Origin: Synechococcus sp. UW140
GTDB taxonomy: Bacteria; Cyanobacteriota; Cyanobacteriia; PCC-6307; Cyanobiaceae
Reading direction: 5' to 3'
Length of the DNA stretch: 34,842 nt
NCBI GenBank assembly: GCA_945860085.1
Contig: CAMAPJ010000021.1
Coordinates: 1 to 34,842, forward strand
How positions within the stretch are numbered: the stretch's first letter is position 1; every line of letters begins with the position of its first letter. This document shows, in pieces, positions 4,266 to 10,562 of this stretch. A model generated the notes under the pieces. It had not been told where the DNA came from, did not search any database, and saw nothing but the letters and a program-made list of their open reading frames with translations. Made by a program: the position numbers and the translations under genes.

Positions 4266-4760
4266 ATGAGCGTCGTTCGGGATCTGATCCTTCAGGCAGA
4301 TGATCAGCTGCGTTACCCGACCGGCGGCGAACTGCGCTCCATGGTCGAGTTTCTCTCGGCGGGAGGCAGCCGCTTGCGGGTGGTGCGGGCCCTCACGGAC
4401 AACGAGCGCAAGATTGTCGATGAGGCCGCTCGCCAGCTGTTCAGCCGCAAGCCCGACTATGTGGCTCCCGGCGGCAACGCCTATGGCCAGAAACAGCGGG
4501 CCCAGTGCCTGCGGGATTTCAGCTGGTATCTGCGGCTTGTCACCTACGGGGTGCTGGCGGGCAGCACGGAAATGATCCAGCAGATCGGCCTGGTCGGCGC
4601 CCGCGAGATGTACAACAGCCTCGGCGTTCCCATGCCAGGCATGGTGGAAGCCATGCGCTGCATCAAGGAGGCGGCCCTGGTGTTATTGGGGGCTGATGAT
4701 GCGGCCCTGGCTTCTCCCTACTTCGATTACCTCATCCAAGGTATGCAGACGCCCAACTGA
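4266..4760 (+). CDS. apcD: Allophycocyanin-B alpha chain (phycobilisome core, terminal emitter)
   Basis: 164 aa, typical allophycocyanin-subunit length. The phycobilisome globin fold is recognisable throughout ([76 protein letters not shown]). Cys81 in QCLRD is the phycocyanobilin attachment site. [21 protein letters not shown] and the [11 protein letters not shown] ending match ApcD rather than ApcA, whose equivalent reads more like GEEMTATCLRD. ApcD is a minor alpha-type subunit in the core of the phycobilisome. It passes excitation energy towards the photosystems and is linked to state transitions. The gene stands alone: divergent from rlmD, with its own rho-independent terminator. The ATG at 4266 is the family start; the Shine-Dalgarno sequence is weak. 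The main alternative would be a diverged ApcA copy. Confidence 0.93.
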
Positions 4761-4820
4761 GGCGTTCGCCCCCTTGAATCAGGTCTGCGTCAAGCCAGGA
4801 CCAGGCAGTAACTGACTTTT

Positions 4821-4844
4821 AAGGGCCCAGAGGCCCTTTTTTAT
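4821..4844 (+). terminator. Rho-independent terminator of apcD
   Basis: A 7-bp GC-rich stem (AAGGGCC, 4821-4827, pairing with GGCCCTT, 4832-4838) with loop CAGA is followed by a T-rich tail (TTTTATT). It lies about 60 nt after the apcD stop codon, in the right orientation for apcD. Confidence 0.85.
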
Positions 4845-5334
4845 TGGGTAGATACAAAGGCATTTTCAGGCAATGCCGATGGGCTGGATTTGCAACCCAT
4901 CGACATTCTTGCTTATCTTCAGTGAGACTAGTGAGTGGACCCAGGTTGCGTCTTACTCATCCCGGTACTAGATAGGACGAGACCCAATGTTTTGGTTCAA
5001 GTCAGGGCCGCTGAACCTGCCGGACAACATCGGCCTGAACGGCAGAAGTGGCCGATTCAGGGAGGCAACTACGGCCAAAAATGTTGCCCCGAGCGTGCTG
5101 CTTCAGCCAACATCCTGCCGCAAAAGAGCGCTCCCAGGCATCTCAGTCTAGTCTTTTTTTAAGACCTGAATTGAGTCCAATTCAAGAATAATGAGACTAG
5201 CTAGGGCATTGCTGAAGGTACCAGTCTTCGTCGCTCGCGAACGGGCGAAAAACTCTCGCCGCCCTGCTTCTCGCATGTTGCAGCTAGGTCCATTAATTAG
5301 ACACATGGCGAGTCTTGTACGAGACATCACAGAC

Positions 5335-5362
5335 TGCTTGAATCGGCCTGCTTGAATCGGCC
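5335..5362. repeat. 14-bp direct tandem duplication
   Basis: TGCTTGAATCGGCC occurs twice back to back (5335-5348 and 5349-5362) with no mismatch. It lies in the noncoding island and looks like a recent slippage duplication. Confidence 0.9.
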
Positions 5363-5618
5363 TTCCTGAGCCAGCCCAGGCGTAACGGACAGCGCCCAAT
5401 AGAGCGCAAGAACCAGCAGACTTAGGTCTGCGTTGGGGCTGAGCCTGCAAGACCCAAACGCGACAAGCCAGCATCCGCCAGCGAGACGGCGACGCCTCAG
5501 ATTGCGCGGTGGCTCACCAATGCAATGTCGCTTGCACTCGCAACGTACATGCGGGCTGGACAGGAGACGTTGTCCGCTCTCGAAGCAGCCGACAAAGGGG
5601 CCCGCCCAGGACCAGGAG

Positions 5619-5655
5619 CGCTTGCGTACCTGTGTAACCCACAGGTACGCAAGCG
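5619..5655. repeat. Perfect 16-bp inverted repeat with 5-nt loop
   Basis: CGCTTGCGTACCTGTG (5619-5634) pairs perfectly with 5640-5655 around the loop TAACC. No T-tract follows on either strand, so it does not look like an intrinsic terminator. There is no adjacent gene for it to terminate. It could be the stem of a small RNA, a cruciform-forming site, or a remnant of a short inverted-repeat element. Confidence 0.9.
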
Positions 5656-6134
5656 TCGATCAGTCTGTTGCCACAGGGCTTTTGAGCTGCAAATGGCTGC
5701 CTGGACAAACGCTCCAACCCGTATTGGACAAACATTGGCCAAGGATTGAGCTGTGGTCTCGCTGCGTCGAGGGCTGCCGCAGAACTGGGCAGCGATCCGC
5801 TTGAAAGGTCAATTGTCGTTGATTTGGACGGTTGGACCTGCTGAAACTCTGCGCCTACTGAGGGCGAAATCGCGTCTTTTTTAGGTTTCCAGCTACCTGG
5901 AATGCCATGGCTCTAGGAGCGGATCGGTTTTGTCGACCTCAGCTAGCTCCGTTCAACCCCGCAAGCCCAGGGGCATGGTGATCGACCTGGACAAGCTGTC
6001 TGTATCTTTGTCTCATTCATCTTAGTTGAGACCCGCTAAGAGTCTGATTATTGGTCTCGCTAGAGATTGCTGAAATTGGGCTTGATCGTTTTGCGTCTCA
6101 ATGGGACGGCAGGGAATCGATAGGGATCGATTAA

Positions 6135-6148
6135 GTCCCATATGGGAC
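6135..6148. promoter_or_regulatory. 14-bp palindrome within a TGGGAC cluster (candidate protein-binding site)
   Basis: GTCCCATATGGGAC is a perfect palindrome. Single TGGGAC half-sites lie at 6102-6107 and 6167-6172, giving four half-sites in 71 bp. It sits about 70 bp beyond the 3' end of the RHH-J gene. No adjacent promoter is evident, so a regulatory role is only a possibility. Confidence 0.4.
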
Positions 6149-6219
6149 ACATTATTGGTCTTGAAATGGGACGCAGGTGAGATCGGTGAACTGCGCTTAA
6201 AGATTCAGGCCTTGGCCTC

Positions 6220-7245
6220 TCAGGGCTTATCGCGATAGAGCTCCTTGAGCAATTGGTAGGCCTCATTCAGGCGGCGCATCACATCGGCGGAGCCGCCAGC
6301 ATCGGGATGGTGACACTGGGCCTGGTCCCGGTAGGCCTCGCGGATCTGGACCAGGGAAATGGCCATATCGGGGGTGGTGGGCATCTTCAGCAGTTTCAAA
6401 GCGCCCAGCACCGTCATCGTGTGGTCAATGGCCTGGAATGACTGGTGTTTTCGCCGTTTGCGCAGCCGCTGCACAAAGCGGCGGATCAGGGTGGGGATGC
6501 GTAGGGGCAGGGTCCTGGCGCTGAAGGGGTCCTCCAGGATTCCGGCTGCCACGATCACCCGTTCGAAACTGGCCGCCCCTGCGGGCCAGCTAGGTGCCAC
6601 GCCTTGAATCACCTGCACCAACAAAGACCAGGTGAACGGCCGGCCCTCGCTTTGCTCCGCCTGAATCCACACCTCCTGGGCCATCCAGACCATGGCGGCC
6701 TCCAGCACCGCCTCCGTGGCGGCTTGTCCGTAAAGATCAAACCAGTGGTCCCTAGCTGCGCCTAGGGCCTCCGCGATCGCGGCTGCATCAATCAGTTCCA
6801 CGCCCTGGAGGGTTTGGCTCGCCCCTGGGCTCGGGGGCTCGAGGCTGCGTTTGAGCTGCACCGATTGGCGCCGCACAAAACCGGGAAGGTCGATTCCACC
6901 GCCAGAGCGCCCGGCCTGGGCCGCTGCTGCTCCGGCCCGCCCGGAGCGCTCGATATCAATCTTGGGAATCTCATCCGAGACCCGATTCAGGTCTGATGAT
7001 GAGACTAGATCGCGATTAATGAGCACGATGGCGCCGGTCTCGTTGAGGCTGCCAGGGGGCTCCGGTTCTGCTCCATCCTCCTCGTCGCCATCGTCCCCTT
7101 GGGCAAATTGCTCCAGTAGCCGTTCGAGAATGTCTCCCCGGCTGCGCAGGCCCCACTCCGCCTTGAACCCATCAATCCAGGCCAGCAGCTCTTCGCTCAG
7201 CTCCAGGCTGATGCGCCGCCGGGCCTGGTCACTCTTCTCGACCAC
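6220..7245 (-). CDS. Ribbon-helix-helix-like / J-domain protein of unknown function
   Basis: About 341 aa from the GTG at 7245. This start is chosen because an AGGA Shine-Dalgarno sequence lies 7 nt upstream and the frame's longer N-terminus would overlap the preceding gene. Residues about 7-47 (QARRRISLELSEELLAWIDG followed by FKAEWGLRSRGDILERLLEQ) resemble a ribbon-helix-helix DNA-binding segment: a basic strand followed by two helices. An acidic stretch (GDDGDEEDGAEPEP) and a Ser/Gly-rich linker follow. The middle is a helical domain I do not recognise. The last 46 residues (from ISLVQIREAYRDQAQ through HHPDAGGS to LNEAYQLLKELYRDKP) form a compact J domain with the HPD triad at about 313-315, which in DnaJ proteins stimulates Hsp70 ATPase. 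DNA binding and Hsp70 partnership are inferences. It follows the DUF3370-type gene by 23 nt, so co-transcription is likely. Confidence 0.75.
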   Translation of the reverse strand: MVEKSDQARRRISLELSEELLAWIDGFKAEWGLRSRGDILERLLEQFAQGDDGDEEDGAEPEPPGSLNETGAIVLINRDLVSSSDLNRVSDEIPKIDIERSGRAGAAAAQAGRSGGGIDLPGFVRRQSVQLKRSLEPPSPGASQTLQGVELIDAAAIAEALGAARDHWFDLYGQAATEAVLEAAMVWMAQEVWIQAEQSEGRPFTWSLLVQVIQGVAPSWPAGAASFERVIVAAGILEDPFSARTLPLRIPTLIRRFVQRLRKRRKHQSFQAIDHTMTVLGALKLLKMPTTPDMAISLVQIREAYRDQAQCHHPDAGGSADVMRRLNEAYQLLKELYRDKP

Positions 7246-7268: not shown

Positions 7269-9356
7269 CTATCGGCCGCCAAGGGATTTGATCACCAGTT
7301 GCTGGTTCTCCAAGGCCTGCTGGTAGCGGTCCATCAGGGTCTGGCTCATCCCCGCCGGCGAGATCGCGGCAGAGGGCTCTGCTCCTTGCCATTCGAGCGG
7401 AGCGGCCCCATTCAGCCCCTGGGAGGGTGGCAATGGTAGCAGGGCTGGCAACAACAGCAACGGATCGAGAAGCCGTTGTGAGCTGAGCGGCGGCAAGTTG
7501 GCAACCAGGGTCTTGGTCTTGCCTTGAGAAACAGGCCTGACAAGAGCCACAGATCTAGGCGCTGCGGCTGGCTTGCTGCCAGAGGTTGCTTTGCTGCTGC
7601 TGGCCCGGTTGGCCTTAATCGTCAGTTTGGCAGGAATGGATGACCGGGCAGGCCCAAGCTGGGCTGGACCTTGAATGGCTGCCTGACCTGGCGTGGACCA
7701 AAAGCTGGCTTCGACGGTTGGGCTGGTAGCTGGACTGGTTGTTGTTGGACTGCTGCCAGAAGCCGCAGCTGGAGCGCTTGCTGGGGGAAAAGATGGCGGG
7801 GTAGCTGTGGAAATGGATGGGGCAATCGTGATCGCAAGGCGGGCATCGTTGGCATTGGCGAGCCCGTTATCGCCGCCGGCTGGATCGAAAAGCCCAGTTG
7901 GTAGAGGCGGCTGACTAGGTCTGGGGGTTGCCCGGTTGGCTCGGCCCTGGGCCAGGGCCAGTTGCTTGAGCTGCTGCTGGACCTGGGCCAATTGGGCGCT
8001 GGGCACCACGCTCAGCAAGTGGCCCGGGGTGGCATCGGCCGGGTAAACCAGCGCGATCCGCACCGGATTGTTTTGGCCGGGGATCAGGTCCAAGGGGGTA
8101 AGACTGAGGCTTTCGCCGGAACGCATCCCCACATGGACCTCGCGATAGCCGCTGTCTGTGGTGATACCGATCGATCCCCTAAAGGCGGTGAAGGGGCGGC
8201 CATTGGGACTGGGATGGCTCAGGACCAGCTCGTAGGGGCCGCTTCCCTTCAGGTTGAGGTTGATATCGAAACGCACCCCGTAGGTCCCGACGTTGTTGAG
8301 GGAAGAATCGATCATGCGGCTAGCCAGGGGGTTCACCTGGATTTCGCCGGTGCCGAAGTTATGGCGCACCGTACTGGTGAGAGGCACATGCAGGGGGCCC
8401 TCACTGAGGTCGTAATTGAGGCTCGCCTGATAGGTATCGCCGATCGCCACTCCCGCCACGCGGGAAAACACATAACCCGCTTCAATTTCCCGTAGTCGAC
8501 GCAGGTAGGTGCGCCCTGGCGCCAATTGGCCGCTGTCGAGAACAGCAAGGACATCGTTGTGATCGCGGCCCTTGCGGGCGGCCACAACGGCCACCTGCAG
8601 GGGGCCATCACTGCGGCCCCGGATCAGGCCGTTGGCAATGCCATTGGCCGGTAGCTGGGTCTGGAACAGCACGCTGCGGCCACGGGGCGGAATCACGATC
8701 CGCTCGGGAAGATTGGCATCTAACTTGCCCCTCAGTAGGGCAATGGCGGTGGCATCGCCGGGACCGGTGTTCCAGGGGCGAGGACCTAGGGGTTTGACCC
8801 CCATCAAATTGTTAGGCAGATAGGGCGCATCAAAACTGTTGCGCACCGATCCTTGCTCAAATTCAACGGTGAGAGTTACGTCGGATGGATTGATCAAAAT
8901 AGCCGCGAGGGTTAACTCTTCGCGGCGACCCGTTGCCCCATTCCAACTGGAGCCAATCGGATTGTATTTGTGATGGATATGCAGACCGAATTCGCCGTTA
9001 AAAGTGTAGGTCGCGTTATCAAGCAACTGGTTGCTTTCTGGGCTGTAGGCCTGGCCGGGCATTGTATTAACCAGAATTCCAGCCCCTTGCACTTCCTCCG
9101 GCTGGTTGGAATGGAGCACCGGCACGGTGTTGAACTTGCCGACAAGCGGTCGAGCCGGCTGGCCAGCCATCAAGGCCACGTAGGCCTGGGCCTGGTTCGC
9201 CCCCAGCACCACGCTGGCCAGGAGAACCAGCAGCAGGGGCCGCTTGCGACCTATGGGACTGTTTGGTCTCAACTGTCTTTGTCTTGGTGTTCGCAGAAGC
9301 TGGGCGGGGGTTGGGCGGCTTAACCCAGTGGGGACTTTGGGGCTCGATCGGGGCAA
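7269..9356 (-). CDS. Secreted DUF3370-family protein
   Basis: 695 aa. An arginine-rich N-terminus leads to a hydrophobic core (about 40-52, PLLLVLLASVVLG) and an AxA cleavage site after NQAQA (residue 58), so the protein is probably exported to the periplasm or outer surface. Residues about 60-470 form one large domain (VALMAGQPARPLVGKFNTVP, GEFGLHIHHKYNP, PRPWNTGPGDATAIALLRG, FRGSIGITTDSGYREVHVGM) that I recognise as the cyanobacterial DUF3370 family; its function is unknown. Residues about 470-650 are a low-complexity Pro/Ser/Thr/Ala tail. A short conserved-looking end follows (MSQTLMDRYQQALENQQLVI). The long tail may be a spacer to the cell wall or outer membrane. The start at 9356 leaves about 35 residues before the signal core, so a later start is possible. 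The RHH-J gene follows 23 nt downstream. Confidence 0.8.
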   Translation of the reverse strand: MPRSSPKVPTGLSRPTPAQLLRTPRQRQLRPNSPIGRKRPLLLVLLASVVLGANQAQAYVALMAGQPARPLVGKFNTVPVLHSNQPEEVQGAGILVNTMPGQAYSPESNQLLDNATYTFNGEFGLHIHHKYNPIGSSWNGATGRREELTLAAILINPSDVTLTVEFEQGSVRNSFDAPYLPNNLMGVKPLGPRPWNTGPGDATAIALLRGKLDANLPERIVIPPRGRSVLFQTQLPANGIANGLIRGRSDGPLQVAVVAARKGRDHNDVLAVLDSGQLAPGRTYLRRLREIEAGYVFSRVAGVAIGDTYQASLNYDLSEGPLHVPLTSTVRHNFGTGEIQVNPLASRMIDSSLNNVGTYGVRFDINLNLKGSGPYELVLSHPSPNGRPFTAFRGSIGITTDSGYREVHVGMRSGESLSLTPLDLIPGQNNPVRIALVYPADATPGHLLSVVPSAQLAQVQQQLKQLALAQGRANRATPRPSQPPLPTGLFDPAGGDNGLANANDARLAITIAPSISTATPPSFPPASAPAAASGSSPTTTSPATSPTVEASFWSTPGQAAIQGPAQLGPARSSIPAKLTIKANRASSSKATSGSKPAAAPRSVALVRPVSQGKTKTLVANLPPLSSQRLLDPLLLLPALLPLPPSQGLNGAAPLEWQGAEPSAAISPAGMSQTLMDRYQQALENQQLVIKSLGGR

Positions 9357-9476: not shown

Positions 9477-9659
9477 ATGATCCCCCCCTTTGCTTGCTGC
9501 GGGCAATCCGACTCGCCTGAATCCTTCCGGCGTCGCCATCAAGAACGCAAGTTAAGGATGCTGACCTTCTGGCGTGAGGGCCTTGAACGACAGCTCGCGG
9601 CCCTCGATGCCACGATCAGCACGCTACGGCGCCAGATGGAGACTCCAGGCGACGCCTGA
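9477..9659 (+). CDS. Small hypothetical protein with a basic coiled-coil-like core
   Basis: 60 aa from the ATG at 9477. It begins MIPPFACCGQSDSPESFRRR and continues with a charged helical stretch (RKLRMLTFWREGLERQLAAL, then DATISTLRRQMETPGDA) that looks like a short amphipathic helix or coiled coil. The CC pair near the start is notable. I recall similar short proteins in marine Synechococcus but do not know a function. Its last 44 nt overlap the 3' end of the sigma-factor gene on the opposite strand. No Shine-Dalgarno sequence is evident. Reality is supported by protein-like composition and by the gap between the DUF3370 and sigma genes; it remains uncertain. Confidence 0.55.
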   Translation: MIPPFACCGQSDSPESFRRRHQERKLRMLTFWREGLERQLAALDATISTLRRQMETPGDA

Positions 9660-10461
9660 GTTCGGCCAGGCCCCTGTGCAGGTGGCGGTGCACGGTGCTC
9701 GCACTCACCTGCCAGTCGCTGGCCACCTGCCTGAGGCTGCGGCCCGAGAGGATTACCGCCTTGATGGCCTCGGCTTGCTGGAGCGGCAGCTGGGCCAATA
9801 GGGCCACGGCTTCAGGACCACGGGGATCCTCCAGGCTGGCTTCTTCCCTGTGCGGGGCTTCGGCCTCAAAATCCAGGGGCACAAAGCGCAGGCTGGCGGG
9901 TGCCTGATCGAGGCGGGTCCACTGGGCCGCCGTTAGCCCCATGGCCAGACGCACCGCCTCCGGCGGCGGCGCCATGCCGAGTTCCGCCTCTATTCGGCTT
10001 TCGTGGCGGCGGCGCTGCTGCTCCAGCTCCTGTCGCCGGCGCGGAATCCGCAGCATGGGGGCCTGGTCCCGCAGGTAATGGAGGATGGCGCCGCGGATGT
10101 GTTGGCGGGCAAAGGGCTCAAAGGGCAGTCCCCGGCTGGGGACGTAGAGCTCGGCGGCGCGCATCAGGCCCAGCAGCCCCACCTGGGTCAGGTCGTCGGC
10201 TGATTCAGGCGACAGATGGGCGTAGTGGCGGGCGATTGGGCCGACCAGGGCCAGGCTGGCCTCGATGCGGACGCTGCGGCCGTTCTGGCGGCCCTTGGCG
10301 GGCTGGCTGCTTGGGCGCCCTTGGTTAGGAGCCGCGGTGGACTGGATGCCGGGAGATTGAGAGGCTGGCCTATTAGATGAAAGCCTTTTAGATGAAAGCC
10401 CATTAGATGAAAGCTTTTTAGAGACAGGCCCTTGGAAGGCAGAAACTGGAGAAGCAGCCAT
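9616..10461 (-). CDS. Alternative RNA polymerase sigma factor (sigma-70 family, group 3-like)
   Basis: 281 aa from the ATG at 10461; a TTG at 10506 would add 15 residues. After a low-complexity N-terminus comes sigma region 2 (SLALVGPIARHYAHLSPESA, DDLTQVGLLGLMRAAELYVP, FEPFARQHIRGAILHYLRDQ), with the core-binding and -10-reading helices. An intermediate region follows, then region 4 with a helix-turn-helix (SGRSLRQVASDWQVSASTVH, RHLHRGLAELRRRL). Region 1 is absent and the protein is shorter than primary sigma factors, which fits the type-III (SigF-like) alternative sigmas of cyanobacteria. Target promoters cannot be inferred. The N-terminus holds a 15-bp in-frame tandem repeat encoding LSSNG/LSSKR/LSSNR (residues about 17-31). 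The gene ends a minus-strand run and follows the Ap4A phosphorylase-like gene by about 100 nt. Confidence 0.85.
   Translation of the reverse strand: MAASPVSAFQGPVSKKLSSNGLSSKRLSSNRPASQSPGIQSTAAPNQGRPSSQPAKGRQNGRSVRIEASLALVGPIARHYAHLSPESADDLTQVGLLGLMRAAELYVPSRGLPFEPFARQHIRGAILHYLRDQAPMLRIPRRRQELEQQRRRHESRIEAELGMAPPPEAVRLAMGLTAAQWTRLDQAPASLRFVPLDFEAEAPHREEASLEDPRGPEAVALLAQLPLQQAEAIKAVILSGRSLRQVASDWQVSASTVHRHLHRGLAELRRRLESPSGAVAC
10370..10414. repeat. Three 15-bp tandem repeats in the sigma-factor gene
   Basis: Units 10370-10384, 10385-10399 and 10400-10414 share the core TTAGATGAAAGC and differ only in the three leading bases. The array is in frame with the sigma gene (minus strand) and encodes three copies of the pentapeptide LSSxx. 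It is clearly AT-richer than its surroundings. Confidence 0.95.
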
Positions 10462-10562
10462 GAACTGGCAAGACAGGGTGTTGTAAGGGGGTAAGGACGG
10501 GGACAAGCCCAGCCCTCCCTTTTCCAGAAACAGCCCAAACGCCGTTTAGCGCCAGCGTGAAA

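Follow-up and report, generated by a model that had tools for sequence, protein, structure and literature searches.

A predicted ribbon-helix-helix/J-domain protein and a conserved dyad at the replication terminus of picocyanobacteria: parts of a putative terminus module

The RHH-J gene and its product

The DNA analysed here (the window) is a stretch of 34,842 nt from Synechococcus sp. UW140. Its minus strand carries a gene for a protein here called RHH-J, after its predicted ribbon-helix-helix (RHH) and J domains (Table 1). Read on the plus strand, the same interval is interrupted by stops. An in-frame ATG 5' of the GTG at 7245 would give a product of 390 aa; the GTG is taken as the start because the homologues start close to it. 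In most loci the gene order is Ap4A phosphorylase, SigF-like sigma factor, DUF3370, RHH-J, a gap, a phycobilisome-type gene on the other strand, RlmD and PheT. DUF3370 and RHH-J are only 2–45 bp apart in most loci printed and are therefore probably co-transcribed.

Table 1. Features of the RHH-J locus, in positions of the window (a dot marks features without a strand)
Feature	Positions	Strand	Basis or remark
Non-coding gap ('motif-rich island') between two convergent genes	4761..6219	.	ORF map and neighbourhood comparison
Box cluster, far side of the dyad	4924..5568	.	Box scan
27-bp dyad GCGTACCTG-N9-CAGGTACGC, proposed dif-like terminus core	5624..5650	.	Only match in this draft genome
TGTCCA box, nearly fixed distance (~ -56) from the dyad	5702..5707	-	Box scan
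Phased GTCYY/RRGAC cluster between dyad and gene, including GTCCCATATGGGAC at 6135-6148	6010..6173	.	Spacing analysis
RHH-J gene, 341 aa, GTG start at 7245	6220..7245	-	ORF translation and homologue starts
Predicted J domain, residues 276-338; HPD codons 6301-6309	6232..6420	-	Pfam, alignment, model
Central helical domain, conserved, residues 118-270 (AGxLEDPF, PTLIRRFV)	6436..6894	-	Alignment and model
Low-confidence linker, residues 52-117	6895..7092	-	Alignment and model
Predicted RHH domain, residues 8-51	7093..7224	-	Pfam, profile, model
DUF3370 gene, conserved upstream neighbour of RHH-J	7269..9356	-	Neighbourhood comparison, context only
SigF-like sigma factor gene, conserved neighbour	9616..10506	-	Neighbourhood comparison, context only

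The RHH and J assignments rest on the family, because the single-sequence Pfam scores of the window protein fall below the curated cut-offs: 16.2 bits for RHH_1 (residues 11-47, E 0.011; cut-off 20.5) and 23.6 bits for DnaJ (E 5.6e-5; cut-off 27.8). RHH_1 is matched at E<=0.05 by 18 of 27 family members (best 3.3e-5) and DnaJ by all 27 aligned homologues. Compared with PDB, the family profile finds NikR and a CopG-family regulator at E 0.04-0.06, and T-antigen J domains, as top match, together with Tim14 at E 2e-5 to 4e-5. In the AlphaFold model the N end forms a strand (9-13) and two helices (18-31 and 36-49), i.e. a beta-alpha-alpha arrangement with N-terminal strand, to which NikR 2caj can be aligned over residues 8-51 (Z 4.7). 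The C end is modelled as helices 279-285, 298-312 and 320-338; here 2guz_B, a chain of the Tim14-Tim16 complex, reaches Z 10.0 and other J domains about Z 5-8. The HPD motif is invariant in the alignment (27/27). Among 80 named loci, HPDxGG was found at all 80, LEDPF/Y at 79, and a strict RHH regular expression matched 61; the first 60 residues of the other 19 were read and have an RHH-like start in all but L045, for which the residues printed were upstream ones only. Conservation of both ends to this extent would not be expected by chance. Judged by the modelled fold, the N end belongs to the RHH superfamily, and the J fold together with HPD places RHH-J with the J-domain proteins of the class C type.

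Between the two ends, the linker has a pLDDT under 50 at residues 50-119, and we term it disordered; it contains a conserved NExxALVLI stretch, and a conserved IDLPGFV starts directly after it. The central domain, when modelled alone, reaches a mean pLDDT of 81.6 and a pTM of 0.71. It had no match in PDB or BFVD at E<=0.001 (best VIA-align Z 3.1), which does not show that its fold is new. The genome of the window holds two further RHH-like segments which resemble the N-terminus of RHH-J, at G000:C104:466-606 and G000:C154:1159-1287, in frames of 125 and 62 aa.

RHH-J is a conserved chromosomal family of picocyanobacteria. A profile search found it in 161 of 201 Cyanobiaceae genomes, and in 119 of 130 among those of high quality. 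In a single-protein search of 60 genomes, including that of the window, no full-length RHH-J was found in the 23 from other cyanobacterial families, which gave two J-domain-only matches and nothing longer. Most of the 80 named loci, kept from 332, carry the label Synechococcus, Cyanobium, Vulcanococcus or Prochlorococcus. A mobile origin was considered and rejected, as neither plasmid nor phage records gave a match.

The initial annotation of this DNA had proposed an RHH-like N-terminus and a compact C-terminal J domain with HPD. Both hold up: the profile searches match the RHH and DnaJ families across the homologues, and the predicted structure has an RHH fold at the N-terminus instead of a simple coiled coil. 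It had also noted that the gene adjoins a motif-rich island, and this island is conserved with the gene, in the form of a dyad and phased boxes.

The non-coding gap, its dyad and its boxes

The gap 3' of RHH-J measures 665-4006 bp in 68 of 81 loci (the window and the 80 named ones), the 13 in which no next conserved gene was found being left out. RHH-J and the phycobilisome-type gene converge, thus no promoter accounts for the gap. The Prochlorococcus loci L096, L102 and L109 have retained RHH-J, with RlmD following after a gap of 760-971 bp; sigma factor, DUF3370 and phycobilisome genes were not found there within the roughly 17 kb fetched. At L087, L105 and L091 the gap is enlarged to 2.3-4 kb, possibly through insertions beside the dyad.

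In the window the dyad has the form GCGTAYCTG-N9-CAGRTACGC. A position-specific scan found it in 68 of 68 gaps, with scores of at least 19 compared to at most 2.5 upstream, and in three more loci lacking a found next gene. It was missing in eight further scored loci, with only 88-552 bp there downstream of RHH-J; the remaining two of the 81 had too little sequence for scoring. Because the loci scanned were also the source of the dyad matrix, the upstream scan and searches of whole genomes serve as controls. With up to two mismatches, the dyad was found in 23 of 37 genomes of the family, in all 23 no more than 0.9 kb downstream of RHH-J, plus one weak match (G014); in five of the 23 outside genomes there were matches no better than expected by chance, and in 5 of 60 the reversed pattern matched. 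When 201 genomes were searched with at most one mismatch, 137 had the dyad, 128 of them once and nine twice, compared to 7 of 201 for the reversed control. By this census 135 genomes hold RHH-J and dyad, 26 RHH-J only, two the dyad only and 38 neither. Checked by eye, 67 of the 69 genomes for which both positions were listed have the dyad at most 1.2 kb downstream of RHH-J. For G078 and G193 the match lies on a different contig from RHH-J, and for G083 and G195 the match that was counted is away from the gene, at which a g79-type dyad with two mismatches is found instead.

Fifteen of the 26 genomes with the gene only were read by eye, and in all 15 a diverged form of the dyad stands where it would be expected. 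Eleven of these are lineage variants: five of the g79 variant (GCATAACTG..CAGTTATGC type) and six of the g18 variant, with a shorter GTACTG..CAGTAC core (one with an arm mismatch). The other four have degenerate arms. Among the 11 'gene only' genomes that remain, four have a contig end at most about 0.6 kb away, and in G068, a 'dyad only' genome, the dyad is 0.4 kb from one. Genus g9 lacks both RHH-J and dyad in all ten genomes sampled (G013, G090, G117, G139, G157, G172, G186, G198, G210, G221). Therefore, the module is dispensable in Cyanobiaceae.

One alternative is that the island is a non-coding RNA or a terminator hairpin unrelated to RHH-J. Indeed, the dyad can fold as a hairpin and its arms covary: 7 of 20 distinct arm pairs are symmetric compared to a permutation mean of 2.35 (P 0.005). 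However, the asymmetric positions of 59 distinct dyads show 15 mismatches, seven G-U and five C-A, and since they are mostly not G-U, a DNA site is favoured over an RNA hairpin despite the covariation. Furthermore, an Rfam search of the window from 4500 to 6400 gave no match, and an RNA offers no reason for the terminal, nearly single-copy place described below. We regard this alternative as very improbable.

A k-mer analysis of the 68 gaps found TGAGAC 264 times compared to 55 expected, in 68 of 68 loci, with the dyad arms as second signal. TGAGAC occurs at 3.34/kb inside the gaps and at 0.27/kb in the remainder of the same loci, i.e. TGAGAC/GTCTCA is about 12 times denser there; beside the gap, in the 20-kb stretches next to it in G008 and G014, it is at background (0.30 and 0.40/kb). 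Over 66 loci the boxes lie mostly 100-600 bp from the dyad, on both sides and without strand preference, and only 8 of 259 GTCTCA are found within 100 bp of it. A TGTCCA box lies before the dyad at about 56 bp; in 66 gaps, 92 of 113 same-strand copies are within 100 bp of the dyad on that side.

The spacing of the boxes is strict. Gaps over 2.5 kb were left out, so that 66 of the 68 were used and 64 after a loose redundancy filter; shared ancestry inflates the counts even then (64/66 passed), relatives not being independent samples. In the 64 gaps, GTCYY is followed by RRGAC at a spacing of 9 in 57 pairs from 34 loci, and RRGAC by GTCYY at a spacing of 14 in 75 pairs from 45 loci. All peaks, which by far exceed the medians of 2.5-5, are at 9-10, 18, 21, 30 and 33 for GTCYY to RRGAC, at 14 and 26 for RRGAC to GTCYY, and at 11-12, 23-24, 32, 35 and 44 for boxes on the same strand. 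Such peaks were not found in 189 kb of control sequence, in which the largest count was 17 (same strand 9). The boxes of the window follow the same spacing, e.g. at 6135/6144/6158 and 5151/5161/5175/5193. The array may be read as GTCYY-N4-RRGAC palindromes of 14 bp that recur in steps of about 11-12 bp; operators of such a repeat type are covered cooperatively by RHH proteins. A three-box in-register pattern gave 10 hits in 24 genomes compared to 26 for the reversed pattern, five of the 10 within 0.9 kb downstream of RHH-J (G000, G010, G028, G101, G163) and five elsewhere. This pattern does not count as evidence in its own right, and the array is recognisable as a cluster, not through this pattern genome-wide. 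An EM motif for the boxes was discarded as over-degenerate (about 2500 sites).

Position at the replication terminus

The RHH-J/dyad locus marks the replication terminus. Its distance from dnaN has a median of 0.480 of the circle and exceeds 0.40 in 46 of 48 single-contig genomes; genome lengths were rounded to 0.1 Mb in most of them. Genomes with the locus away from the antipode are G097, G158 and G127. The search set comprised 49 genomes, from which G081 was dropped as its RHH-J position was not listed, and for G124 the position of the dyad was used in place of the gene. The dnaA gene was unusable as a guide to the origin, because four of seven genomes checked are numbered from it. All ten 16S copies of six single-contig genomes run towards the dyad; with the dyad as terminus, 10 of 10 point the way replication travels, and with the dyad as origin, 0 of 10 (a G022 copy, from five contigs, was unused; G010 and G034 yielded none).

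In steps of 20 kb, the AT skew switches within about 20-40 kb of the dyad in G014 and G035. In G035 the change of AT skew, negative to positive, precedes the dyad by about 20 kb, and the GC skew goes from positive to negative at the dyad; this turn holds at third codon positions of genes on either strand, single bins excepted. For G014 the switch of the total AT skew coincides with the dyad; the GC skew there is weak, has no clean switch and drifts over about 200 kb. G008 is consistent with a terminus at the dyad by AT skew on a coarse scale, and G027 is noisy. In the outlier G097 (distance 0.334) the skew shift is gradual and uneven, up to about 0.45, and does not pinpoint the dyad; the antipode lies clearly beyond the skew switch. 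Because the contig of the window is too short, has no skew change, and belongs to a draft genome, the terminal position of the window locus is inferred by orthology.

A 1-kb non-coding region with repeats, whose G+C is below that of the locus in the 12 loci printed, one tie excepted, might also suggest a replication origin. This reading was rejected and deserves hardly any credence: the locus is opposite dnaN, all ten 16S copies would run against replication, and the GC skew of G035 changes from plus to minus across it. It also bears on the role suggested by the initial annotation. A function of the replication or partition type, named there as one possibility, gains from the location at the terminus; the analogy to DnaJ acting on replication initiators is not supported, as initiators point to the origin.

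The position would be incidental if RHH-J were an ordinary autoregulator which binds boxes near its own gene for transcription control. RHH proteins are commonly repressors, and the island adjoins the gene. However, the boxes are downstream, between convergent genes and away from the promoter of the operon, the gap is retained where neighbour genes are missing, and the locus is terminal in 46 of 48 genomes, so that we consider simple autoregulation improbable.

Recombinase candidate, possible mechanism and related systems

The FtsK/SpoIIIE motor domain (PF01580) was over cut-off in none of 28 Cyanobiaceae genomes, with one weak match below it (G127). Among the control genomes, 10 of 14 match, eight over cut-off, and Synechococcus elongatus is likewise without match. 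FtsK control of the type usual for bacterial dif sites is not seen in these 28 genomes. In other respects the dyad resembles dif: it is present in one copy per chromosome (single in 128 of 137) and located at the terminus where the skew switches, G097 being ambiguous. Its form, about 28 bp with inverted arms and a short asymmetric centre in non-coding DNA, fits as well.

A tyrosine recombinase of about 390 aa, here called A2, was found in 31 of 37 Cyanobiaceae genomes and 13 of 23 of other families. It is highly conserved in cyanobacteria (L205:1438-2598, also L206, L207, L208, L215, L216) and its residues read as an R-K-YxxR-H-Y arrangement. In NCBIfam it has only weak similarity to XerA, XerS and XerD, and in PDB it matches one XerC-like protein (E 0.0086). 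It also occurs in seven of nine relatives without RHH-J, two of these with internal stops. An obligate partnership of a tyrosine recombinase with the dyad is not supported by co-occurrence (A2 in 7/9 without RHH-J and 13/23 outside the family). Being present without the dyad, A2 is only a candidate for a chromosomal resolvase. Cyanobacterial XerCD have been described as present but divergent (Kono et al., PMC3025954), and Oscillatoriophycideae as lacking Xer and carrying a separate 'Cyan' subgroup of tyrosine recombinases (PMC8138268). A2, widespread in cyanobacteria and weakly XerA/XerS-like, would be a candidate Cyan recombinase; the passage on Cyan names no target site, and A2 does not track the dyad.

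We think it probable that RHH-J is the DNA-binding protein of a picocyanobacterial terminus module, which coats the boxes round a dif-like dyad and recruits DnaK. Adjacency and co-occurrence of array and gene suggest that the RHH domain would bind the phased GTCYY/RRGAC boxes flanking the dyad as cooperating dimers. The dyad might serve as a dif-like core on which a different protein acts, probably a tyrosine recombinase. DnaK would then be brought to the nucleoprotein complex by the J domain, and might load, remodel or dissolve this complex at the end of replication or at sister separation, in cells without FtsK. We infer this order of events, like the binding, recruitment and recombination steps themselves, from the arrangement of the locus.

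The strongest rival retains all but recombination. RHH-J would organise or position the terminus, as a MatP-like or ParR-like tether, and the dyad would be a loading or nucleation site for RHH-J or a partner. The strict box spacing, the clusters which flank the dyad on both sides with few boxes near it (8/259 GTCTCA within 100 bp), and the failure of A2 to track the dyad fit such an organiser. Yet the arms of the dyad are unlike the boxes in sequence, and near single copy, 27 bp, an asymmetric centre and terminal position are hallmarks of dif (criteria in PMC2731167). We therefore hold the organiser to be unlikely, though to be taken seriously; the autoregulator, RNA and origin readings fit less well than a terminus module.

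A more far-reaching version of the terminus module can be put forward only tentatively, with somewhat more doubt than trust. RHH-J coating a phased array at a dif-like site and recruiting Hsp70 might constitute an undescribed terminus system that replaces FtsK/MatP/XerCD in FtsK-less picocyanobacteria, including Prochlorococcus, and the dyad would be a candidate cyanobacterial dif missed by earlier prediction. In a 2011 survey of dif, a site was predicted in none of five cyanobacteria (PMC3025954). In the open-licence PMC literature, ribbon-helix-helix, DnaJ domain and cyanobacteria were not found treated together, and among the matches listed neither the RHH-J protein nor the dyad site is described, as judged by title or abstract; PMC2921402 uses none of the terms terminus, dif site, XerC and FtsK.

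The components are individually known, namely RHH arrays, dif-like sites and, as in T antigens, DNA-binding proteins that carry a J domain. No J-domain protein dedicated to a chromosome terminus is known to us. The well-known MatP/matS system of enterobacteria likewise has an RHH-type protein with a helical companion domain on short palindromes at the terminus. Unlike RHH-J, MatP has no J domain, and matS sites are spread over a wide region, whereas the RHH-J boxes show no such dispersal and are confined to about 1 kb. In a Pfam scan of RHH-J up to E 10, DnaJ and RHH_1 were the only matches, the MatP model not being among them. ParR/parC, equally familiar from plasmid partition, places an RHH protein beside a box array with about one helical turn per step, as at the RHH-J locus; in contrast, RHH-J belongs to a chromosome terminus, has no plasmid match and possesses a J domain. 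A gene for a partner or motor NTPase was not found in the conserved neighbourhood (sigma factor, DUF3370, Ap4A phosphorylase, RlmD, PheT). Polyomavirus T antigens and E. coli CbpA are familiar cases of a J domain on a DNA-binding protein, as proposed here; they have no RHH, carry the J domain at the N end instead of the C end, and serve other roles.

XerS/difSL, XerH/difH and archaeal XerA/dif use palindromic terminus sites of about 28-31 bp; the XerS and XerH sites are linked to a gene, and XerA is described as FtsK-independent (PMC5357621, PMC2731167). These single-recombinase systems resemble the dyad in palindromic terminus site and gene linkage. Unlike in XerS and XerH, the gene linked to the dyad, a putative recombination site, is RHH-J and not a recombinase. 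In Myxococcus the RHH nucleoid protein CdbA is functionally tied to DnaK chaperones (CdbS/PilZ-DnaK) and to chromosome segregation (PMC10313047); a terminus array is not mentioned in the passages on it, and CdbA and PilZ-DnaK are separate proteins, whereas RHH-J is a single chain.

RHH-J beside a terminal DNA element suggests an undescribed handling of the chromosome end point in cells seemingly without the usual machinery. Prochlorococcus and Synechococcus rank with the most abundant phototrophs. Their chromosome resolution becomes directly testable through a terminal site that has a family-specific candidate binding protein encoded next to it, and DnaK recruitment at the dyad, if it occurs, would give Hsp70 a new use in chromosome biology. 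Furthermore, the dyad provides a sequence landmark for the terminus where the genome skew is weak.
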